A DNA stretch of 36,909 bases from a virus. Of the stretch, positions 26,797 to 36,909 are shown one piece after another. The position numbers and the translations under genes are program-made. Below the pieces are notes generated by a model. It was not told where the DNA came from. It worked only from the letters and a program-made list of their open reading frames with translations, and searched no databases. Position 1 is the stretch's first letter, and each line of letters opens with the position of its first letter. The stretch spans positions 1 to 36,909 of IMG/VR virus record IMGVR_UViG_3300046690_000489, one strand, 5' to 3'.

Positions 26797-27156
26797 TCAG
26801 TCGTTCTCTTTTTTCCCATCAATGCTCGCGGCTTTTGCAAAAGCCGAAACCATACGAAGCAGCACCTCTCGATCCAAGTCCGTGACGTGCTGATAGAACT
26901 CAAGAAATTTTGCCGTATCGGGACTGATGCTTTCGACCGTTGTGGGCTTGCGCTCACCGGTCACCACATACAACACGTCGACTCCCTTCTCAGCCACTGC
27001 GGCTAGATAGGTCGCATCAGGGCTACGTTCGCCCTTCTCGTAGTTGTATTGGCTGTTTTTTGAGGCACCAGCCTTCGCTGCGAAATCGGTTTGATTGAAG
27101 CCCAACCGTTCGCGCTCTTCTTTCAGGCGATCACCAATTCCCACAAATGTCTCCAT
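26797..27156 (-). CDS. Prophage repressor, helix-turn-helix (C/CI-like)
   Basis: 119 residues from the ATG at 27154-27156. An XRE-type helix-turn-helix lies in residues about 8-60 (IGDRLKEERERLGFNQTDFAAKAGASKNSQYNYEKGERSPD). The C-terminal part is short and helical and lacks a visible LexA-like Ser/Lys protease, so induction would not be by classical RecA-driven self-cleavage. It is divergent from a small DNA-binding gene, and the palindrome in between is the likely operator. The ribosome binding site is weak. Confidence 0.88.
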   Translation of the reverse strand: METFVGIGDRLKEERERLGFNQTDFAAKAGASKNSQYNYEKGERSPDATYLAAVAEKGVDVLYVVTGERKPTTVESISPDTAKFLEFYQHVTDLDREVLLRMVSAFAKAASIDGKKEND

Positions 27157-27162
27157 AGCGAT

Positions 27163-27191
27163 TTGACATTCCCACAATCATGGGAAATACT
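27163..27191 (+). promoter_or_regulatory. Early promoter with operator palindrome in its spacer
   Basis: TTGACA (27163-27168), a 17-bp spacer, then AATACT (27186-27191) reads toward the early genes. A perfect inverted repeat, TTCCCA-CAATCA-TGGGAA (27169-27186), fills the spacer exactly. A repressor dimer bound there would cover the polymerase site. It is also 12 bp from the repressor's own start codon, so autoregulation is likely. Confidence 0.75.
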
Positions 27192-27200
27192 TCGCCTGTC

Positions 27201-27220
27201 ATCACACGAAATCACACGAA
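27201..27220 (+). repeat. Tandem 10-bp repeat in the early leader
   Basis: ATCACACGAA occurs twice in immediate succession, eight bases before the next start codon, between the early promoter and the Cro-like gene. It may be a second binding site for the Cro/Cox-like protein. Confidence 0.5.
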
Positions 27221-27228
27221 ACGAGACT

Positions 27229-27441
27229 ATGCCGAACGGATACCCCACGGAGCAAGCGTGCCAAGGCGCCCGCGAGCGCCTCGCGCATCAAGGTCTATCT
27301 GCCAAGGATTGGGCCGATCAACACAACCTCACGCCTTCTACGGTGTACGCCGTGCTGAACGGACAGAAGAAATGTCTGCGGGGCGAGTCTCATCGCGCCG
27401 CTGTACTGCTCGGTATCAAAGACGGCGTGATTGAAAACTAA
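27229..27441 (+). CDS. Small DNA-binding regulator (Cro/Cox position)
   Basis: 70 residues from the ATG at 27229. A helix-turn-helix lies at about 23-45 (LSAKDWADQHNLTPSTVYAVLNGQKK), and the segment SHRAAVLLGIKDG near the end is usual for this small phage family. It is the first early gene, divergent from the repressor, where lambda Cro or P2 Cox would be. It probably turns off the repressor and may help excision. Confidence 0.75.
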   Translation: MPNGYPTEQACQGARERLAHQGLSAKDWADQHNLTPSTVYAVLNGQKKCLRGESHRAAVLLGIKDGVIEN

Positions 27442-27470
27442 GCCCGTTGGCTCAGGGAGGAAACCAGAAG

Positions 27471-27944
27471 ATGAAACGCCCAGTTCTAGCCAACAGGAAA
27501 GACGTGGTCAGCGCAGTGATTGGTGCATACCAGGGAGGCCGCATTTACGCCGCTGCCGACTTGGGAATGCCACTCAAAAAGTTCGACAACCAGGCCTATG
27601 AAAACGCCGGCAGCCGACCGCTGAGTGATGACCACATTCATCGCCTTGAACAGGTAGCAGGAACAACCTTCCTGCCGGATTACATTGCAGCCAAATACGG
27701 CGGAATGTTCGTCCCGCTGACAGCATCGGCGGATCTGGACAACGTTGAGTTGTACAACCGGTCAGTCAAAGCCGCCGCCAAGCGCGGGATGGTTGATCAG
27801 ATCATTGCCAAAGCACTCGACGACGGTGTCATTGAGTCCTGCGAAGCCCAAGCAATCATCAACGCTCTGGTGCACTACATGTCCGCCCGCTACGCCGAAG
27901 TGCTGGCCACCATTCAATTGCACGGTCGGGGGTTCGCCGGGTGA
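27471..27944 (+). CDS. Phage regulatory protein CII family (CP76-like)
   Basis: 157 residues from the ATG at 27471 with GGGAGG about ten bases upstream. The N-terminal part (RKDVVSAVIGAYQGGRIYAAADLGMPLKKFDNQAYENAGSRPLSDDHIHRLEQ) is typical of the phage regulatory CII family in Pseudomonas P2-like phages. The rest is helical. It overlaps the Ogr-like gene by four bases. Confidence 0.8.
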   Translation: MKRPVLANRKDVVSAVIGAYQGGRIYAAADLGMPLKKFDNQAYENAGSRPLSDDHIHRLEQVAGTTFLPDYIAAKYGGMFVPLTASADLDNVELYNRSVKAAAKRGMVDQIIAKALDDGVIESCEAQAIINALVHYMSARYAEVLATIQLHGRGFAG

Positions 27945-28231
27945 GTACTTACAAGCTTGTCTGCCCGCACTGCCTCGGCCGTATGCGTATCCGCACCAGC
28001 GAAGGCACACACATTTTCCTGCGCGTGGCCTACCTGCAATGCACCAACGAGGCTTGCGGCTGGTCGGTGCGTGCGGAGTTCGAAATGACTCACGAAATGA
28101 GTCCCAGCGGCATGGCCAACCCATCGGTGCGCTTGCCGATTGCCGACATCGCCCTGCGCCGCGCCGCGATGAAAACCGCCAACGATCAACCCGACCTGCT
28201 CGACCAAATGGAAATGGAGTGTGCGCAATGA
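27941..28231 (+). CDS. ogr: Late-gene transcription activator, Ogr/Delta zinc-finger family
   Basis: 96 residues from a GTG overlapping the CII-like stop. The cysteine spacing is C-x2-C-x22-C-x4-C (CPHC, then CTNEAC), exactly the pattern of P2 Ogr and P4 Delta. Such proteins bind a TGT/ACA dyad upstream of late promoters and contact RNA polymerase. Three matching dyads occur here (5409, 12631, 17199). Unlike P2, where ogr follows D, the gene sits in the early operon. Confidence 0.9.
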   Translation: MSTYKLVCPHCLGRMRIRTSEGTHIFLRVAYLQCTNEACGWSVRAEFEMTHEMSPSGMANPSVRLPIADIALRRAAMKTANDQPDLLDQMEMECAQ

Positions 28232-28599
28232 ACCACGATCAGTTGACCCACGACTACCGCAGCAGCATGCAACGTGCCGCGTTCGCTTACCTGCAACGAC
28301 ACGAAGCGCAGTACCTGGTGGACTCGGACCTGCTCTATGAAAACTGCGTTCGCCACTTGGCCACGTCGCTGGAAGTGCCGGTCTTCATGGCGGAACGCCT
28401 GGTGCACAACGCCAGGACTGAATTGCAGGTGATCAATCAGCGCAAGTGGATCGGCGTGGACTGGGGCAACAGCCCCGGCTGCACGGTCGTGCACTTGATC
28501 GACACCCGTGCTGATCTGCGCTACCCGGTACCGGCGAGGCTGCTGCCGCAAAGCCTGCTCACCCAGCGCGGTTCCGCGCACAAGCACCACCCTCAGTAA
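28228..28599 (+). CDS. Unrecognised early phage protein
   Basis: 123 residues from the ATG at 28228, overlapping the Ogr stop. The N-terminal half is helical (MNHDQLTHDYRSSMQRAAFAYLQRHEAQYLVDSD). The C-terminal part contains KWIGVDWGNSPGCTVVHLIDTRADLRYPVP. I see no metal or nucleotide motif. It is in line with the early regulators and replication genes. Confidence 0.7.
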   Translation: MNHDQLTHDYRSSMQRAAFAYLQRHEAQYLVDSDLLYENCVRHLATSLEVPVFMAERLVHNARTELQVINQRKWIGVDWGNSPGCTVVHLIDTRADLRYPVPARLLPQSLLTQRGSAHKHHPQ

Positions 28600-28674
28600 C
28601 CCCTTTTTAAACAACCCGCCCTGCCCCGCTTCCCGTGGGTTTGGGTGAGCTTTGCCTGAAATCCGAGGTGGATC

Positions 28675-28908
28675 ATGGAAATCGACATCGCCATCACCGC
28701 AAAACTGCCCCGTGCACAGGCCGAAGCCCTGCTCCAGGCACTGCGCGCCCAGTACTCAATGCAGTTCAACGAGTACTGGTATGACGATCGCTTTCGCATG
28801 ATCCCCGAGGGTTTACGGCACGGCTCGCTGCTGTCGGCCTTCCCGGTGATGGCCGCGCAAAAACGCCTAATTGGCGCCCTTAAACACAGTCTCGGCGAAG
28901 TGAAGTAA
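28675..28908 (+). CDS. Small unrecognised early protein
   Basis: 77 residues with GAGGTGG before the ATG. The start MEIDIAITAKLPRAQAEALLQALRAQYSMQFNEYWYDD suggests a small beta-alpha fold. It lies just upstream of the primase-helicase gene (six bases between them), so it may help replication. Confidence 0.65.
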   Translation: MEIDIAITAKLPRAQAEALLQALRAQYSMQFNEYWYDDRFRMIPEGLRHGSLLSAFPVMAAQKRLIGALKHSLGEVK

Positions 28909-28914
28909 GCCCCG

Positions 28915-31629
28915 ATGAACATGAAACACGATTTGCGCGCCGACATCCTGCAACGTCTTGAATCCGACTACGGACTGAAGCACAAAGCCGGTAAATACAT
29001 GCGCCAGGGTGAATGCCCCGCATGCAAGAAAAAGGAGCTGTACGCCTTCCACGATGACCCGTGGATGATCCGTTGCGGCCGGGGCAAGTGCGGCCAGACC
29101 TGGCACGTTAAAGAAATTTACGAAGACCTGTTCGAAGACTGGAGCAAGCGCGCCCCGGCTAGCGAGCAACACCCCAGCGCCACCGCCCGTGCCTATCTGG
29201 AATTTGCCCGAGGCTTTCGGCTTGATCTGATTCAAGGCTGGTTTACGCAGGAAACGTATTTCTCCGGCGAGCTGAATGCCGGCAGCGCGACGGTGCGCTT
29301 TGCGTTGGAGAAAGGTGGCTACTGGGAACGCCTGATAGACCGGCCGCACCGGTTCGGCAAGATGAAAGCGCGGTTCAAGCCTGGCGATAGCCCGCGTGGG
29401 TATTGGTGGTGTCCGCCATGTGTCGAGCTGCTGGACGTCAAAGAGCTGTGGATTGTCGAGGGCATCTTCGATGCCATCGCCCTGGTACATAACGGCATTG
29501 CGGCGGTGTCGGCGATGTCGTCGGCCTTCTTCCCTGAAGAGTCTCTGAAAGAGCTGGCCCGGCAGCGCGGCGGTAAATTGCCCAAGCTCATTTGGGCATT
29601 GGACAACGAACCCGGCGCGCACAAATACACGAAGCGTTGGGTGCGTCAGGCTCGCGCCCTGGGCTACGAGTGCGAAGCGGCGCAGATCCCGCAGTCGGAC
29701 AGCCGCAAGGTCGATTGGAACGATCTGCATCAGCGCTGGGCATTCATCGACGGCGAAAGCGAGCGTGCCGAGCAGATCGAAAAGGATCTGGCCACGGCTC
29801 GCTATCACGGCGCCTTGCTGATCGCCGAAAGCGCGTCCGAGAAAGGCGTGCTGATGTACGAATGGCGCGAGCGCCACGAGTTTCACTTTGGCTTCGACAG
29901 CCGGCTCTACTGGTTCAAGATGGACCTGGAGAAATTCAACAAGGCCATGCAGGCGCTGGAATCCTCCGATCGCCACGAAGACCAGCTGCTGAACGAAAAG
30001 CAGCGTCGCGAAAAGGCCCTGCGCCAGTGCGGCGGCGTGGTGGAAATCGCCAACTGCTACCCACAGGCACTGTATTTCCAGCGCAACGAAGTCACCGACG
30101 AATCCTGGTACTACTTCCGCGTCGATTTCCCGCACGACAGCGGCAGCGTCAAGAACACCTTCACCGGTGGCCAGGTCGCGGCTGCGAGCGAGTTCAAAAA
30201 GCGCCTGCTCAGCATGGCCGCCGGTGCCGTGTTCACCGGTAGCGGTCAGCAGCTCGACAAGATCATGAAGGATCAGCTATTCGGCCTGAAAACCGTCGAG
30301 ACCATCGACTTCATCGGCTACAGCAAACTGCATGGCTGCTACGTGTTCGGCGACCTTGCGGTACGCGGCGGCATCGTCAGCGTGGTGAACAAGGAGGACT
30401 TTTTCGAGTTCGGCAAGCTGCGGCTGAAGACGCTGCAGAAGTCGATCGCCATGCACATACAGCGCGACAGCAAACAGTACCGCACTGACTGGCTGCCGAT
30501 GCTGTGGCTGTGCTTCGGTGCCAAGGGAATAGTTGCCCTGGCGTTCTGGTTTGGCTCGCTGTTCGCCGAGCAGATCCGATCTCAGTACAAGTCCTTTCCG
30601 TTCCTTGAGGTCACCGGTGAAGCCGGCGCCGGCAAGACCACGTTGCTGACTTTTCTGTGGAAACTGCTAGGCCGCGAGCATGAAGGTTTTGACCCGTCGA
30701 AATCGACCCGTGCCGGACGCCAGCGCGCTATGGGCCAAGTCTCCAACATGCCGGTCGTGCTGATCGAAGGTGACCGTAACGAGCCGGATAAGGCACACGC
30801 CAAGGGCTTCGACTGGGACGAACTGAAGGACTTCTACGGCGGCGGCACACTCGGCACCAAGGGCATGAAAACCAGCGGCAACGAGACCTACGAACCGCCG
30901 TTCCGGGGCGCAATTGCGATTAGCCAGAACGCTGATGTCAGCGCGTCAGAAGCGATCCTCACCCGGATTATCAAATCCCACTTTGCGCGCCCGGAAGTCA
31001 CCACCGAGAGCCGTGCAGCGGCTGACAACCTGAACCTGATCCCGGTCGAGCAACTGAGCCACTTCCTGTTGCTGGCCGTTCGTGCCGAAGCCCAAGTGAT
31101 GGCCAAGTTCGCCGAACGCGTGCTGGTTCATGAACAGCAACTGCGCCGGCTCAAAGAAATCCGCGTGGAACGGATCATCAAGAACCACAGCCAGTTGATG
31201 GCCCTGGTCGATTGCCTGCGCCTGGTTTGCCCGCTCGATGACAACCACGTCGCCACGACGCATCAGGCGCTGATGGTCATGGCGCTGGAGCGGCAAGCCG
31301 CGATCAGTGCCGACCACCCGCTGGTTGCCGAATTTTGGGAAGTCTACGAATACCTCGAAAGCCTGGGCGAAGGCCCGCAGGTCAACCACAGCACCGACCC
31401 GAAACTCATCGCGATCAACCTCAACGAGTTCGCCGAGAAGGCCAGCGAGCATCGGCAGAACCTCGCTGACCTCAAGACCCTGCGCGGGCTGCTGGTCAAC
31501 AGTCGCAGCCACAAATGGCTGGAATCGAACAAGGCCGTGTACAGCGCAGTCCGCGCATCACAAGCGGCCGGCAACGCGATGTTCAACAAACCCACCACCG
31601 TGCGCTGCTGGATTTTTCAGAGCGCGTAA
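28915..31629 (+). CDS. Toprim primase-helicase, replication protein
   Basis: 904 residues. A CHC2-like zinc finger is formed by Cys34, Cys37, Cys54 and Cys59. A Toprim domain follows, with Glu182-Gly183 (LWIVEGIFDAI) and the acidic strand LIWALDNEPG near 225-234, as in primases. The last third is a P-loop ATPase: Walker A GEAGAGKTT near residue 570, then MPVVLIEGDRNEPD near 610-625. No rolling-circle tyrosines of the P2 gpA kind are seen. It would unwind and prime DNA itself. P2 uses gpA and host Rep, so replication here probably differs. Confidence 0.85.
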   Translation: MNMKHDLRADILQRLESDYGLKHKAGKYMRQGECPACKKKELYAFHDDPWMIRCGRGKCGQTWHVKEIYEDLFEDWSKRAPASEQHPSATARAYLEFARGFRLDLIQGWFTQETYFSGELNAGSATVRFALEKGGYWERLIDRPHRFGKMKARFKPGDSPRGYWWCPPCVELLDVKELWIVEGIFDAIALVHNGIAAVSAMSSAFFPEESLKELARQRGGKLPKLIWALDNEPGAHKYTKRWVRQARALGYECEAAQIPQSDSRKVDWNDLHQRWAFIDGESERAEQIEKDLATARYHGALLIAESASEKGVLMYEWRERHEFHFGFDSRLYWFKMDLEKFNKAMQALESSDRHEDQLLNEKQRREKALRQCGGVVEIANCYPQALYFQRNEVTDESWYYFRVDFPHDSGSVKNTFTGGQVAAASEFKKRLLSMAAGAVFTGSGQQLDKIMKDQLFGLKTVETIDFIGYSKLHGCYVFGDLAVRGGIVSVVNKEDFFEFGKLRLKTLQKSIAMHIQRDSKQYRTDWLPMLWLCFGAKGIVALAFWFGSLFAEQIRSQYKSFPFLEVTGEAGAGKTTLLTFLWKLLGREHEGFDPSKSTRAGRQRAMGQVSNMPVVLIEGDRNEPDKAHAKGFDWDELKDFYGGGTLGTKGMKTSGNETYEPPFRGAIAISQNADVSASEAILTRIIKSHFARPEVTTESRAAADNLNLIPVEQLSHFLLLAVRAEAQVMAKFAERVLVHEQQLRRLKEIRVERIIKNHSQLMALVDCLRLVCPLDDNHVATTHQALMVMALERQAAISADHPLVAEFWEVYEYLESLGEGPQVNHSTDPKLIAINLNEFAEKASEHRQNLADLKTLRGLLVNSRSHKWLESNKAVYSAVRASQAAGNAMFNKPTTVRCWIFQSA

Positions 31630-31636
31630 ACCGCAA

Positions 31637-31680
31637 CCAGCGCTGCAACGCTGGGCACGCTCCAAAGGAGAAGCACCATG
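31637..31680 (+). promoter_or_regulatory. Hairpin + RBS cassette, copy 1
   Basis: Stem CCAGCG, loop CTGCAA, stem CGCTGG (31637-31654), then nine bases and AAAGGAGAAGCACCATG with the start codon. Copies 2 and 3 share the loop and the RBS block but not the stem sequence. The stem pairs perfectly in each copy. Confidence 0.75.
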
Positions 31681-31974
31681 CAAGTTCAGGTCATCACCGG
31701 CGACGCCGGCACGGGCAAGACCACAAAACTCAGGTCGATCGAGGCGCAGCAACTGGCCAAAGGCAGACAGGCCGGAATCATCCATGCGGACGCGTATTCG
31801 CATCACGGCCTGCTGGCAATCATGGAAGTCAGGTTGGAGCGCGGCGAGCGGACGCTACTTGTCGACGATTGCTCGAGCAAACAGATAGAGGAGATCTTGC
31901 AGTGGCAGAAGGAGGCCGCTGGCAACGAGCGCTTCAAAGACTTGGCGATTCACCTGGTTCGCCGCGCCGGCTGA
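31678..31974 (+). CDS. Very small P-loop NTPase-like protein
   Basis: 98 residues. Walker A near residues 8-16 (GDAGTGKTT) and a possible Walker B near 58-64 (TLLVDDC). The protein is far shorter than ordinary P-loop ATPases, yet both motifs are present at a plausible distance. It begins ATGCA like the other genes with the repeated leader. It lies just after the primase-helicase. Function not known; perhaps a replication accessory or a helicase loader. Confidence 0.75.
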   Translation: MQVQVITGDAGTGKTTKLRSIEAQQLAKGRQAGIIHADAYSHHGLLAIMEVRLERGERTLLVDDCSSKQIEEILQWQKEAAGNERFKDLAIHLVRRAG

Positions 31975-32000
31975 TCAACGAGTTCATGCCGGAAAGAAGT

Positions 32001-32056
32001 GGTGCCGAGGGGCTGCAACCCCTCGCCACCGACCACCCCAAAGGAGAAGCACCATG
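32001..32056 (+). promoter_or_regulatory. Hairpin + RBS cassette, copy 2
   Basis: Inner stem CGAGGGG, loop CTGCAA, CCCCTCG (32006-32025). GGTG/CACC extends it (32001-32004 with 32027-32030) across one C-C mismatch. Then nine bases and AAAGGAGAAGCACCATG. The loop, the nine-base spacer and the RBS block match copy 1 with a new stem. Confidence 0.75.
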
Positions 32057-32317
32057 CAAGCACAAAACCAAAGTGGCGGCGGCACAGAGGCTACCACGAA
32101 CGCCTTCAAGGTCGGCGATGACGTGACTTTCGTCGTTGCCCGCAGCACTGGGCACAGCGTCAGTCTCAGCGTTCGCGAAGGGAAGATTGCCGAGATCGAT
32201 CGTGCTACGGCGGTCGTGAAACTCCGCAATGGCCGTACCAGTGTGCAGCCGTTGAACAAGCTGACACGCCAGGGCGAGCGCAACGCCCTAACCCGCGCAT
32301 TGCTGGGGGACGTCTGA
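32054..32317 (+). CDS. Small unrecognised early protein
   Basis: 87 residues, start within the second copy of the repeated leader. It is probably a small beta-barrel (VGDDVTFVVARSTGHSVSLSVREGKIAEIDRATAVVKLRNGRTSVQPLNKL), reminiscent of KOW/SH3-like nucleic-acid-binding folds. Stop overlaps the ATG of the next gene. Confidence 0.65.
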   Translation: MQAQNQSGGGTEATTNAFKVGDDVTFVVARSTGHSVSLSVREGKIAEIDRATAVVKLRNGRTSVQPLNKLTRQGERNALTRALLGDV

Positions 32318-32538
32318 TGCAACCTTCAACCAATTCTGTTGCACGTACACGCCCGCAGATGGCGAGCCATCGGCTTGACCTACCCAGTCGCTGCGACATC
32401 TGTGGCAAAGCCCGATCTACGCGCAAGCACCAGGCCTGTAGTCGGATTCGACAGCAGCGCAAGTCTGTCGAGTGGGCCGAGCTGATGGCGACACGGGCGG
32501 AAGCGAAGAAGAACAAGCCACGGCGCTACGCGCGCTGA
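32317..32538 (+). CDS. Small zinc-finger protein, paralogue A
   Basis: 73 residues, basic. The core CDICGKARSTRKHQACSRIRQQR has four probable zinc ligands: Cys, Cys, His, Cys. The gene at 32865 encodes the same core. Its stop overlaps the preceding gene's end by one base (ATG at 32317). Small basic zinc-finger proteins of this size in phages often bind RNA or DNA. Confidence 0.75.
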   Translation: MQPSTNSVARTRPQMASHRLDLPSRCDICGKARSTRKHQACSRIRQQRKSVEWAELMATRAEAKKNKPRRYAR

Positions 32539-32548
32539 TTTGAATGAC

Positions 32549-32597
32549 GGGCGACTGGGAACTGCAATTCCCGGTCGCCCGAAGGAGAAGCACCATG
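32549..32597 (+). promoter_or_regulatory. Hairpin + RBS cassette, copy 3
   Basis: A 13-bp stem with one T-G wobble (GGGCGAC, T, GGGAA with TTCCC, G, GTCGCCC), loop CTGCAA (32562-32567). It is followed directly by GAAGGAGAAGCACCATG. This is the longest stem, with no spacer before the RBS block. Confidence 0.8.
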
Positions 32598-32852
32598 CAG
32601 GCAACGGCTCTGTTGTTTTTATACCTGTGCACCAACGCATCCCGCCTCGACTGCCAGGTAATTCCTGTCCGGCAATGGGTCAGCGGGGACGCCTACGAGC
32701 AATGCGCGAGAACCGCACACTCTCTGGAAAACGCCCTGACCCCGGCCAATCGACCTCGGCATCGGTTTGTTTGCGAAACGCCGGACGCCGGCAGCTCCAA
32801 GACTGAAACCGAAAATCAGCCTCACCTAACGCTTCAATCGTTTCGGCTGTGA
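32595..32852 (+). CDS. Small unrecognised protein, possibly exported
   Basis: 85 residues from the ATG at 32595 in the third copy of the repeated leader. A hydrophobic start (MQATALLFLYLCTNA) could be a signal or a membrane anchor. Three further cysteines (CQVI, CART, CETP) follow. I do not recognise the family. Confidence 0.6.
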   Translation: MQATALLFLYLCTNASRLDCQVIPVRQWVSGDAYEQCARTAHSLENALTPANRPRHRFVCETPDAGSSKTETENQPHLTLQSFRL

Positions 32853-32864
32853 TCGGGGGACACG

Positions 32865-33074
32865 ATGAAGAGAAGAAAATCGTTTCCCTGGAATCTGGAC
32901 CTCACCGGCGCCTGTGATCAATGTGGCAAATCCCGCGCCCACGGCAACCACCGTAAATGCAGCAAAGCACGGCAAGTGATTGCGTCACTCCGCAGAGCCG
33001 AGGAAGCCCGGTCCGGCATTCCTCCTACACCTAGAAAAAGCGCCGGATTGTTCTGGTTACTTCGTCAGGACTGA
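32865..33074 (+). CDS. Small zinc-finger protein, paralogue B
   Basis: 69 residues, basic. The core CDQCGKSRAHGNHRKCSKARQ aligns with paralogue A (CDICGKARSTRKHQACSRIRQ) with the same C-x2-C-G-K-x-R-x4-H-x2-C spacing. The rest differs. It is the last gene before the terminator that precedes the integrase. Confidence 0.7.
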   Translation: MKRRKSFPWNLDLTGACDQCGKSRAHGNHRKCSKARQVIASLRRAEEARSGIPPTPRKSAGLFWLLRQD

Positions 33075-33105
33075 TCAGCAACACTCCAACCTACGGCAAC
33101 ACAGG

Positions 33106-33125
33106 AAGGCCCGATGTCGGGCCTT
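33106..33125 (+). terminator. Terminator at the end of the early operon
   Basis: AAGGCCCGA, TG, TCGGGCCTT: a 9-bp perfect inverted repeat (some pairs open at the loop), followed by a T-rich run (TCTGCTTTTGC). It ends the early operon just before the integrase leader. Confidence 0.75.
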
Positions 33126-33176
33126 TCTGCTTTTGCTCTGCTGATCAGTGGTTCAGTTCATCGTTTAGGGACGTGT

Positions 33177-34364
33177 ATGGCACATGGCGTAGAGGCCCGT
33201 GGCAATTCGGTGCGGGTCTATTTTCGTTACAACGGCAAGCGGTACCGGGAGCTTTTGCCCGGCGGGAATACCCCGGCCAACCGGGAGCGGGCCGCGCACC
33301 TGGTCAACATCATTGAATACGAGATCAAGGCTGGCACTTTCAGTTACAGCCGGCACTTTCCTGATTCAGCCACCTTGGTCGAGAACACCTTCGGCCACTA
33401 CCTCGACCTATGGCTGAAGATCAAAAGCAACAGCGTTGCTGCGACGTCTTATCGAGGATATGCCAATAAGGCCGAGGTACATGTTCGACCGCGCTGGGGC
33501 AAGGTGCAGATCGACCAGATCGATCATCTGGATTTGCAGGAATGGGTACAGGACACGCTGTCGAAGCGGCTGAAGAACAAGACTATCCGGGACGTCATCA
33601 GTAACGTGCGCCAAGTCTTTCGGCTGTACCGCACTCGCAAAAAGGTTGCGCATGATCCGACCGAGGGTTTGTTTGTGCGATTACCCGACCCTGAAGCGCC
33701 GGACCCGTTCACAAGGGCGGAGATAAAGCAGATTCTTGAGACTCCCACGAATCGGACGCAGGAGCTGCTGATGATTCAGTTCATGATTTGGGCGGGGCCA
33801 CGGGTATCGGAAACCATTGCGCTGGCATGGGAGGACGTGGATCTGGAGCAAGGCACGGTGACCTTTCGCAGGTCCAAGGTGCGCGGCGCGTACCGAGTGA
33901 CGAAAACCCGCCGATCGACGCGCCGGGTGCGCCTGTTAGCTCCAGCATGGGACGCCCTACGTCAGATCGATGCGTTGACTCGCAGACGCAAAGCGGAAAC
34001 CGTGGAGGTGGTCGAGCGGGACAACAAGACGGTGCGAAAACACAAGCTGCACTTTGTGTTCCTGAACACCAAAAGCGGCCTGCCGCACGCCAATGATTTC
34101 GTGGTGCGCGATCGTTTCTTCAAGGCGCATTTGCACGCTGCCGGCGTTCGCTACCGGGGACCCGGGCAGTGCCGGCACACCTACGCCAGTCAGTTGCTGA
34201 CCACAGGGGTGGCGTCGATCGACTGGATCGCCGAACAGATGGGCCACACCAACGGCAACATGATCCGTCAACACTACGGGACGTGGATTAATGAAGACGG
34301 ACCCGACGTGGTGGGGATGCTGCAAATGGCCTTGAAGCTGGCACCGGTTACAGCTCTGCGCTGA
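33177..34364 (+). CDS. int: Tyrosine-type site-specific integrase
   Basis: 395 residues from the ATG at 33177 with AGGGA six bases upstream. The N-terminal 60 residues are an arm-binding type domain (VRVYFRYNGKRYRELLPGG), then a SAM-like core-binding domain. The catalytic domain has Arg209 (GPRVSE), Arg333-His334 (CRHTYAS), GH in QMGHTNGN, and Tyr367 (QHYGTW). The usual His three residues before the second Arg is replaced by Gly. It recombines the phage attP with the tRNA-Ser site. It reads toward the right att core. Confidence 0.93.
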   Translation: MAHGVEARGNSVRVYFRYNGKRYRELLPGGNTPANRERAAHLVNIIEYEIKAGTFSYSRHFPDSATLVENTFGHYLDLWLKIKSNSVAATSYRGYANKAEVHVRPRWGKVQIDQIDHLDLQEWVQDTLSKRLKNKTIRDVISNVRQVFRLYRTRKKVAHDPTEGLFVRLPDPEAPDPFTRAEIKQILETPTNRTQELLMIQFMIWAGPRVSETIALAWEDVDLEQGTVTFRRSKVRGAYRVTKTRRSTRRVRLLAPAWDALRQIDALTRRRKAETVEVVERDNKTVRKHKLHFVFLNTKSGLPHANDFVVRDRFFKAHLHAAGVRYRGPGQCRHTYASQLLTTGVASIDWIAEQMGHTNGNMIRQHYGTWINEDGPDVVGMLQMALKLAPVTALR

Positions 34365-34455
34365 ATCCGCTGAGGCCACCACTTTCGGCGAAGCCAGAAG
34401 GTCATCGAGTGGTAAGCCAGCCTGGGGAGGACTGGTTTCCACGCTGCCAGAATAA

Positions 34456-34485
34456 GGCCCCACACCGTGACCAGGTGTGGGGGCC
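34456..34485. terminator. Hairpin between convergent integrase and NACHT genes
   Basis: GGCCCCACACC, seven bases, GGTGTGGGGGCC: an 11-bp stem with one bulged G, between the ends of int (plus) and the NACHT gene (minus). There is no clear T-run, so it may act weakly or in both directions. Confidence 0.5.
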
Positions 34486-34536
34486 GATTGAACATAGGCT
34501 GGAAGTATGTGAATCTCTGCAACTTCGACGGAGAGA

Positions 34537-36318
34537 TTACGATTTTTTTTCTGGTCGAAGTATGTTTAGTTTTTTTCGCTCAGCACCAACTATGGCATCA
34601 AACTTGGCGAGTTCAACCTTAATATCCTCTTGAACTTGAATGAGCACTGATACAACGCCCTTCGGATTAAGATAATCAAACATCGCCTTCAGGTTCACCC
34701 CCAAAACTCCCGCCCTCAATGTTTTCGTTGCTCTTATTGAATTATATATATCGCGATCCGAAGCATTCGCCATTGCCGCCTCTGCAACTTCATGCATAAG
34801 ATCAGTGAGGAGATGATAGAAAGGAAACATTGTTTCCGAGTGCATAACTACAAATGCACTAATGGTAGTTCCGGACGTCTCAATGAAAAAACTTGGAAGC
34901 TTTTTCTCTAAATAACGAAGATGATCTTCTTCATTCTGACTTGATACAGCCAGAGAAATCTCCTCAAGCTCTGCCGGATAATACTTTAAGACGTAGTGTT
35001 GACCGTATCGAAATTCGTCCATATATTTTAGGAAGGCTAATACATCCTCCCAAGAGTTCAGATCCTCAGCGGCTATATCATAAAAATCACAAGCTAGTTC
35101 GGCCGATGAATTTCTTACGAATGAGGCAGCATGGTATTCGAGTATACTCTTGTGAAGAAAGCTAATTTGCTCATAACCATCTTCAAGCATCAGACACGCG
35201 ACGTTCACAATATCTTTTCGAAAGCCTTCAACTTCACATGTCACCCCCCCTACGTACTCCATAGCCTCATTAAATACATGATGAAACTCAATTTCCTTCA
35301 TCGTTCGCCCAAGGCGCAACTGCATTGTCATGAAACAAAAGGCATCAAATAGACGATGAAGTTTCGACTCAGATAGCCCACTATATCGCTCTCTTTGAAA
35401 ACCCGGCTTAAACCTATCATGTCTGGTAAAAACCGCTGAAAACAAGCTATTAAAAAATTCCGGGAGCGTCGCCGGTATATGGCTCTCCATTTCGTATACA
35501 AGACACAGCAAAGTTAACATAAGCGGAGTTGTAATAACACCGCGAATATTGCTGGGAGCATCTATTATAGATTGATATATGTTTTCTCTTAGAATTATAT
35601 CCTCAATCAGCTTTCGTAAAAAAGGCTGATAGTCGTCTTCTTCAAACTCATCTATTTCAAAACTTCTAAATCCAGAAAGTCGTTGCACGGCATGGTGCGG
35701 CCGCGACGATATAATTAAAGATAAGTAACCGTATTTTTTCTGAAAATTTTGAATGGCATATACTGTCGAAGTGACCATGCTTTCTGGGATCTCATCAAAC
35801 CCATCAAGCACTAAACTTGTCTTGCCCTCTGTGGCTAAAAAGTCGAACACATCTCTACCGCCTTTTATTCCAGCAGCATCAATAAAGTCGAGAATCAGAT
35901 CAATAAGAGGGCGATCACTAGAAACCATGCGCAGTTCAATAAATATTGGTATCCTGCCACTACTTACAATCTCATTACAAAGATTGCGCATCAGGATAGA
36001 CTTTCCCTGACCAACAATCCCTTCAATAACGGACTTGCCGTTAATTACGCTCCCTATCACCGCACATGCATTTCGATTGTTTTTTTGAATTATTCGCGGA
36101 GGATAATAAAAGTCACTAATCAATACTCCCTTATCACGCGACCACATAGTTTTTACTGTATTGATATTTAGGATAATTTCCGTCAGATTATTTATTGAGA
36201 TCGTCGCATCCCACTTCATTTTCTGCTTTCTAAAAGCTACACCTAGTTCTTTAACTATCGTCGTGATTGTGGGTGTCAGCGCCTTGGCTAATGCTGCTGC
36301 AGTAATTTCTATAGCCAC
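34537..36318 (-). CDS. NACHT-type STAND NTPase, candidate anti-phage defence (bNACHT-like)
   Basis: 593 residues, GTG start at 36318 with AAGGA eight bases upstream. Walker A GIVGQGKS (about 100-107), Walker B LVLDGFDEIP (169-178), sensor-type LIISSRP (201-207), and FLHKSILEYHAASFV (387-401), the NACHT-typical winged-helix region. The N-terminal 70 residues are short and helical, with no recognised effector domain. The C-terminal 190 residues are helical. NACHT proteins are an established class of bacterial phage-defence proteins, some needing no partner gene. The gene is strikingly AT-rich compared with the phage backbone, which suggests recent transfer. It lies between int and att, a usual cargo position. 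Confidence 0.82.
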   Translation of the reverse strand: MAIEITAAALAKALTPTITTIVKELGVAFRKQKMKWDATISINNLTEIILNINTVKTMWSRDKGVLISDFYYPPRIIQKNNRNACAVIGSVINGKSVIEGIVGQGKSILMRNLCNEIVSSGRIPIFIELRMVSSDRPLIDLILDFIDAAGIKGGRDVFDFLATEGKTSLVLDGFDEIPESMVTSTVYAIQNFQKKYGYLSLIISSRPHHAVQRLSGFRSFEIDEFEEDDYQPFLRKLIEDIILRENIYQSIIDAPSNIRGVITTPLMLTLLCLVYEMESHIPATLPEFFNSLFSAVFTRHDRFKPGFQRERYSGLSESKLHRLFDAFCFMTMQLRLGRTMKEIEFHHVFNEAMEYVGGVTCEVEGFRKDIVNVACLMLEDGYEQISFLHKSILEYHAASFVRNSSAELACDFYDIAAEDLNSWEDVLAFLKYMDEFRYGQHYVLKYYPAELEEISLAVSSQNEEDHLRYLEKKLPSFFIETSGTTISAFVVMHSETMFPFYHLLTDLMHEVAEAAMANASDRDIYNSIRATKTLRAGVLGVNLKAMFDYLNPKGVVSVLIQVQEDIKVELAKFDAIVGAERKKLNILRPEKKS

Positions 36319-36375
36319 GATTTGCGTCCTTGTAATTGAAATCCACTCCCTAAGTGAGAGCAGTGACAGAGTTAT

Positions 36376-36404
36376 TTAATAGGAAATACATGGTCGCTAG
36401 TCAT
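36376..36404 (-). promoter_or_regulatory. Candidate promoter of the NACHT gene
   Basis: On the minus strand ATGACT (36404-36399), a 17-bp spacer, then TATTAA (36381-36376). The spacing is ideal, each box matches at four of six positions, and it lies about 58 bp before the GTG. Confidence 0.5.
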
Positions 36405-36432
36405 TTGCATTTACGAAGCCAGTTGCTTCTCT

Positions 36433-36651
36433 TTATGACTGCCGTAGTCGCATGATCGCATCTGTTAGCGCTTGTGCGTTGGTGTCCAAGGTCTCCATAG
36501 CCATGACAGCGCTGAGGGCAACGTCCTCGACGCCATTCTCTGTAAGCCACTTAGTGACCTCATCTATCGCTGCACTGATCGCATGCTGATTGTGTAGAAG
36601 CAACGTGAGCGCATCCGCCGTGGCAATGTTGGATTCAGAGTTATCTGACAT
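36433..36651 (-). CDS. Small helical protein next to the NACHT gene
   Basis: 72 residues from the ATG at 36649-36651, with AGGA eight bases upstream. The longer frame reaching 36906 reads through the att core and the tRNA gene and is rejected. It is acidic and wholly helical (ALTLLLHNQHAISAAIDEVTKWLTENGVEDVALSAVMAMETLDTNAQALTDAIMRL). It is a member of a kind of small hypothetical proteins frequent in Pseudomonas, without named function. It reads toward the NACHT gene and could belong with it, though a separate promoter lies between. Confidence 0.6.
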   Translation of the reverse strand: MSDNSESNIATADALTLLLHNQHAISAAIDEVTKWLTENGVEDVALSAVMAMETLDTNAQALTDAIMRLRQS

Positions 36652-36760
36652 GGGATCCGTCCTGGAGTGAAGGGGTTTGGAAAGCCTAGCTGATGTCGCC
36701 GGGTCTCCTGGCTTGGACACTAATTTTTCAGGCGCCTTTTCCTCATCAAAAGAGTGCTCC

Positions 36761-36778
36761 AGTCCCATCTCAGTCCCA
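36761..36778 (+). promoter_or_regulatory. Probable integrase arm-type sites, right arm
   Basis: Two direct copies of CAGTCCCAT, with GTCCCA cores at 36762-36767 and 36773-36778, 11 bp apart, 80 bp from the core. They mirror the pair at 175-191 in spacing and orientation. Confidence 0.6.
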
Positions 36779-36808
36779 TATGGCCTTTTTTCAGATGCCA
36801 AAAACCAC

Positions 36809-36843
36809 AAACCCCCGACTTTCTCTAGGAAAATCAGGGGTTT
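36809..36843. terminator. Phage-borne replacement terminator for the tRNA-Ser gene
   Basis: An imperfect hairpin (AAACCCC with GGGGTTT; inner TTT/AAA pairs) beside the right core repeat, on the side the tRNA transcript exits. It resembles the host terminator at 31-64 in sequence and place, and the surrounding 90 bp also match in part. After integration the tRNA would keep both its 3' end and a terminator. Confidence 0.7.
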
Positions 36844-36857
36844 GCGTTTACTGAATG

Positions 36858-36880
36858 TGGCGGTGAAGGAGAGATTCGAA
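36858..36880. repeat. Attachment-site core, right copy, within tRNA-Ser
   Basis: Exact copy of 77-99. It covers the encoded CCA, the discriminator, the acceptor 3' strand and part of the T-arm of tRNA-Ser, so the gene remains whole after integration. Confidence 0.9.
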
Positions 36881-36909
36881 CTCTCGATACAGTTTCCTGT
36901 ATACACACT
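36858..36909 (-). tRNA. tRNA-Ser, 3' part (gene cut by the window edge)
   Basis: Reading the minus strand: the end of the anticodon stem AGTGTGT, a long variable arm ATACAG-GAAA-CTGTAT, T-arm GAGAG-TTCGAAT-CTCTC, acceptor CTTCACC, then GCCA. The long variable arm is typical of tRNA-Ser. The bases next to the anticodon stem resemble E. coli tRNA-Ser(GGA), but the anticodon itself lies just outside the window. Confidence 0.9.

Follow-up and report, generated by a model that had tools for sequence, protein, structure and literature searches.

The window, a 36,909-base virus record, is a P2-like prophage of the Pseudomonas type, and on balance we favour the reading that it carries a small phage regulon, made up of a covarying leader, a trans-acting reader of that leader and a 73-residue zinc-finger protein, F1, which is a member and, among phage-encoded proteins, the best candidate for that reader, with its paralog F2 not a ligand. 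Under this reading, two to five genes per phage would share a translational leader laid out as a stem of variable sequence and a hexaloop C(U/G)GCAA, followed after 13-23 nt by a constant AAGGAG-spacer-AUGCA start. A putative trans-acting factor would read the loop and, at the 5' boundary of the ribosome site, set the joint translation of the leader genes, and F1, which would belong to the regulon through its fusion or coupling to a leader gene or its position after one, may be that factor or else an accessory or autogenous regulator. A coordinated translational regulon of this kind in a temperate phage, with several genes, one loop and different stems, would be unusual.

Five small genes lie between the primase and the integrase of the window; three begin behind a hairpin leader, and two encode F1 and F2:

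27941-28231, Ogr (PF04606, E 5e-16)
28915..31629, + strand, primase, 904 aa (phrog_1139), the anchor for sampling relatives
31637..31654, + strand, leader 1 hairpin (hexaloop CTGCAA 31643-31648; SD 31665-31670)
31678..31974, + strand, leader-1 gene, 98 aa, P-loop-like protein (phrog_7795)
32006..32025, + strand, leader 2 hairpin (hexaloop CTGCAA 32013-32018; SD 32041-32046)
32054..32317, + strand, leader-2 gene, 87 aa, with an N-terminal tag and a body replaced by others in relatives (phrog_3728)
32317..32538, + strand, F1, 73-aa CCHC mini zinc finger, whose start and the leader-2 stop overlap
32548..32581, + strand, leader 3 hairpin, 14-bp stem, beginning 10 nt past the F1 stop (hexaloop CTGCAA 32562-32567; SD 32582-32587)
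32595..32852, + strand, leader-3 gene, 85 aa, ATG at 32595, without a family match
32865..33074, + strand, F2, 69-aa CCHC mini zinc finger, immediately 5' of the integrase
33177..34364, + strand, tyrosine integrase, downstream of F2 (PF00589, E 5e-15)

Past the integrase, a 593-aa ORF (34537-36318, - strand) has an NTPase-like look and is possibly a defence or moron gene. The window ends in a tRNA-like fragment (36861-36909), perhaps a remnant of the attachment site, and phage Sirocco has a tRNA-Ser at the end corresponding to this fragment.

The leader hairpin and its loop

The leader is a real, covarying and conserved RNA hairpin with a constrained loop. Its pattern occurs in exactly three copies in the window, with none expected in shuffles. 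What the initial annotation had described as a repeated leader is constant in its hexaloop, SD, spacer and start (CTGCAA ... AAGGAGAAGCACCATGCA), whereas the stem differs in every copy. Across 51 leaders, 7/7 stem pairs are altered on both sides, with 82 compensatory cells compared to 27 ± 4 in shuffled and 8-22 in slid controls. Leader 3 has a fold z of -4.0, and the 101 nt surrounding leader 1 are no more stably folded than shuffled sequence (z -0.4). In the loci collected by that stage of the analysis, the hexaloop at 209 GGAGA..CACC start sites is CTGCAA in 150 cases and CGGCAA in 40, and the second residue is Q or H in 309 of the 330 leader genes that have one, so that the start is nearly always ATGCA. 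The Rfam 15 covariance models gave no credible match on the leaders (positions 27000-36909, E ≤ 5).

Leaders were present in many viral contigs among the matches listed in a viral-contig scan, and the 84,980 species genomes scanned contained 29 stretches with the CTGCAA form, all of them in Pseudomonas. Among 398 Pseudomonas genomes, the CGGCAA pattern matched in 23 and the CTGCAA pattern in 25, with most of the leader-like matches clustered two to four together. A single genome (G095) appears in both lists, its CTGCAA match by eye not being leader-like, and none of the 398 clearly carries the two loop types together. Variant hairpins were also seen in relatives of the phage: a TTGCAG loop, which is CTGCAA in reverse complement and gives the look of an inverted hairpin, lies in L296 near 6697, in L310 near 3219 and in L311, and four leaderless relatives (L171, L172, L211 and L321) each retain one hairpin of the leader-2 kind whose loop differs (TTGCAC, CGCCAA). 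The loops seen in leaderless relatives include CGCCAA, AGCCAA, TTGCAG, TTGCAC and TTGCCC, the hairpin finder having chosen alternative stems for many of them.

The loop is uniform within a phage. Among 129 non-redundant phages with at least two leaders, 126 have a single loop throughout (83 CGGCAA, 43 CTGCAA), compared to a mean of 58 and a maximum of 76 in 2000 permutations, and at least two distinct stems occur in 118 of the 129. The loop type switches eight times on the primase tree, and the phages concerned are uniform across all their copies. Because loops agree within a phage although the stems differ, these data suggest that a trans-acting factor reads the leader loop; vertical descent, or exchange among the repeated copies, could also favour uniform loops. 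A fixed RNA partner, such as an sRNA or rRNA, was judged unlikely by reasoning, since loop position 2 is either U or G, and no single base forms standard pairs with the two. A comparison of 149 loci, covering 4.5 kb upstream and 3 kb downstream, gave no clear candidate for another gene that separates leader-bearing from leaderless phages, the gene clusters being polluted by spurious ORFs and merging.

F1 and F2 among relatives of the phage

F1 and F2 are, as first annotated, two paralogous mini fingers encoded on the + strand (73 and 69 aa) that flank the third leader gene, whose ATG is at 32595; the motif C-x2-C-G-K-x-R-x4-H-x2-C-S-x2-R-Q is exact in both, and both are basic, with net charges (K+R-D-E) of +14 for F1 and +11 for F2. 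Their similarity (17/36 identities by BLASTP, E 7e-9) reflects homology and not chance, as both also match the same PHROG families: phrog_10699 (F1 E 2e-30 over residues 5-72, nearly the full-length profile; F2 E 2.5e-6) and phrog_17140 (F1 E 3e-12; F2 E 3e-16 over residues 11-45). Neither finger matched a Pfam or NCBIfam family at cutoff, a PDB sequence search gave no family match (best E 0.39), and Foldseek with the F1 model found no matching solved fold (best E 3.5). In the AlphaFold2 model of F1, built with 35 sequences (pLDDT 78.5, pTM 0.46), the Cys pair is predicted in a short turn, and a single predicted helix at 39-65 bears the second pair at its start.

To place the fingers among relatives, phages were sampled via the primase, independently of leader and finger. 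The best 80 of 457, 213, 262 and 172 relatives per query were taken, so the sample stays close to the four primase queries; dropping loci with less than 2.5 kb downstream left 238, represented by 200 non-redundant loci that include the window. F1 is present in 94 of the 139 leader-bearing representatives and in 5 of the 61 leaderless ones. In 20 path-disjoint pairs that differ in the leader, F1 follows the leader in eight, opposes it in none and is absent from both members in 12 (sign test on the 8:0 tree-independent pairs, p 0.008); in 36 path-disjoint pairs that differ in F1, the leader follows in seven, opposes in none and is the same in 29. F1 is thus rarely found without the leader, whereas the leader does occur without F1. 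The expectation that phages with the hairpin always encode the finger did not hold, as F1 is missing from 45 of the 139 leader phages and both fingers from 36, and these 45 exceptions led us to reject F1 as a universal partner of the leader. Among 50 whole records, 46 were P2-like with a leader, 37 of these with a finger; the four finger-bearing phages that are not P2-like have no leader, a single match (E 0.04) being judged chance.

F2 behaves differently. It is anti-associated with the leader (16 of 139 leader-bearing versus 34 of 61 leaderless representatives), and in all 50 sampled cases the F2 gene stops 30-110 nt short of the integrase start. The proposal that both fingers are ligands of the hairpins therefore fails for F2 and stands as a candidate relation for F1, which tracks the leader; F2, a paralog that has diverged and is linked to the integrase, is not a leader ligand. 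Its strong link to integration makes F2 a candidate accessory protein of integration or excision, for example a directionality or attachment-site factor.

Candidates for the reader of the loop

It is quite possible that F1 has no reading role and is mere cargo among the many genes that are exchanged behind the leader cassette. Among 98 F1 genes, 24 are fused behind the leader tag, 33 come immediately after a leader gene and 41 lie elsewhere (an F1 match in L406 that lacks the second finger half was omitted from these context counts); with F1 so often within the leader cassette, its association with the leader may be hitch-hiking. Moreover, leader-2 genes (in L022, L073, L016 and the window, 32054-32317) join a constant N-terminal tag, MQ.NQPQGG.AEATT, to unrelated bodies, a pattern in the sequences by which leader and tag appear to form an exchange cassette with F1 as one of the exchanged bodies. 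The 29 pairs above in which the leader is unchanged although F1 differs point the same way. Against this reading, F1 remains enriched in leader phages outside the leader slots (36 of 82 with a leader, 5 of 61 without), an enrichment that is confounded by relatedness.

F1 as the actual reader of the loop is a plausible candidate, although we regard it as doubtful. F1 would then activate or repress the translation of all leader genes in the manner of Com, and phages that have leaders and no F1 would be recent losers or borrowers, which is consistent with the small and shallow F1-negative leader clades (36 clades, the largest with four tips). The one-way association with the leader, persisting outside the slots, also argues for it, as does the leader found directly 3' of the F1 stop in 15 of the 98 F1 genes, with exchanged cargo that includes a C5 DNA methylase (PF00145) as leader-3 cargo in L082; no such role was assigned to the other cargo genes. 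In addition, loop type fits the F1 gene tree slightly better than the primase (six changes versus 7-9 for 15 primase windows of equal length), a fit that physical linkage alone could yield. In the opposite direction, besides the 45 leader phages without F1, leaders without F1 are as intact as those with it (91/102 versus 229/245, p 0.19) and their loops as uniform (37/38 phages versus 89/91), and an identical 24-residue F1 finger core occurs in CTGCAA and in CGGCAA phages.

A host factor that reads the hairpin, perhaps with a host-specific loop preference, is a tentative alternative that would be compatible with F1 as cargo. The restriction of CTGCAA leaders to Pseudomonas, the lack of a clear genome with both loop types among the 398 and the persistence of leaders without F1 are all in keeping with it; however, no isolated host gene with a leader was noticed in those 398 genomes, where leader-like matches sit in prophage-like clusters. 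The Pseudomonas regulators RsmA and Hfq-Crc bind other sequences than the leader loop, which also counts against a host reader. Finally, a DNA element, acting as a recombination anchor or priming site and not in RNA control, is very improbable, as the cassettes exchanged behind the leader and the inverted TTGCAG loop within similar stems of some relatives are set against a near-fixed spacing to the SD and start codon, conservation that continues through the start codon, and conservation of the loop rather than of the stem sequence.

Comparison with Com/mom and other small zinc proteins

Com of phage Mu had been offered as a precedent for the fingers, and it serves as a fair functional one, with no relatedness found in any test that was run (no Pfam Com match at E ≤ 1). 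Com, a finger of the CCCC type, recognises CC(N)2-3GAG within the loop of a hairpin (PMC6483171). The likeness to Com/mom lies in a tiny basic zinc-finger protein and in a short hairpin, with a loop of six bases, that closely precedes a translation start (PMC6483171), and the C5 DNA methylase cargo of L082 echoes Mom as a DNA modifier. Com's CCCC finger differs from the C-x2-C/H-x2-C (CCHC) fingers of F1 and F2, and the loop motif that it reads differs from the C(U/G)GCAA loop of the leader; there are, moreover, several leader genes per phage here. Given the CCHC finger, the different loop and the missing family match, we do not file F1 and F2 as Com, although by analogy a finger of the F1/F2 type may still work like it.

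A bolder extension, which we consider unlikely as a whole, is that F1 is the founding member of a new class of zinc fingers with which phages read RNA, in which a CCHC knuckle and one long helix would recognise the C(U/G)GCAA hexaloop and co-regulate the translation of exchangeable accessory genes, as a multi-gene counterpart of Com/mom whose diverged sister, F2, was recruited to integration. If F1 does read the loop, it would be a compact new RNA-binding module, and if it does not, some other RNA-binding protein, of the host or of the phage, is still to be discovered. Because the loop agrees across a phage, the reader can be searched for directly, and F1 is one concrete candidate protein. In the portions of the literature covered by our search, no paper was found that appears to describe the leader or the finger.

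Similarly to Ogr/Delta, the fingers are small zinc proteins of the same P2-like phage type, but PF04606 is not matched by F1 or F2, and the Ogr of the window is a separate gene. The PHROG profiles that F1 and F2 do match (10699, 17140 and 6887) are families without an assigned function, and their F2-like members include proteins of lambda-like Pseudomonas phages, encoded between the replication genes and ninB, without a leader.
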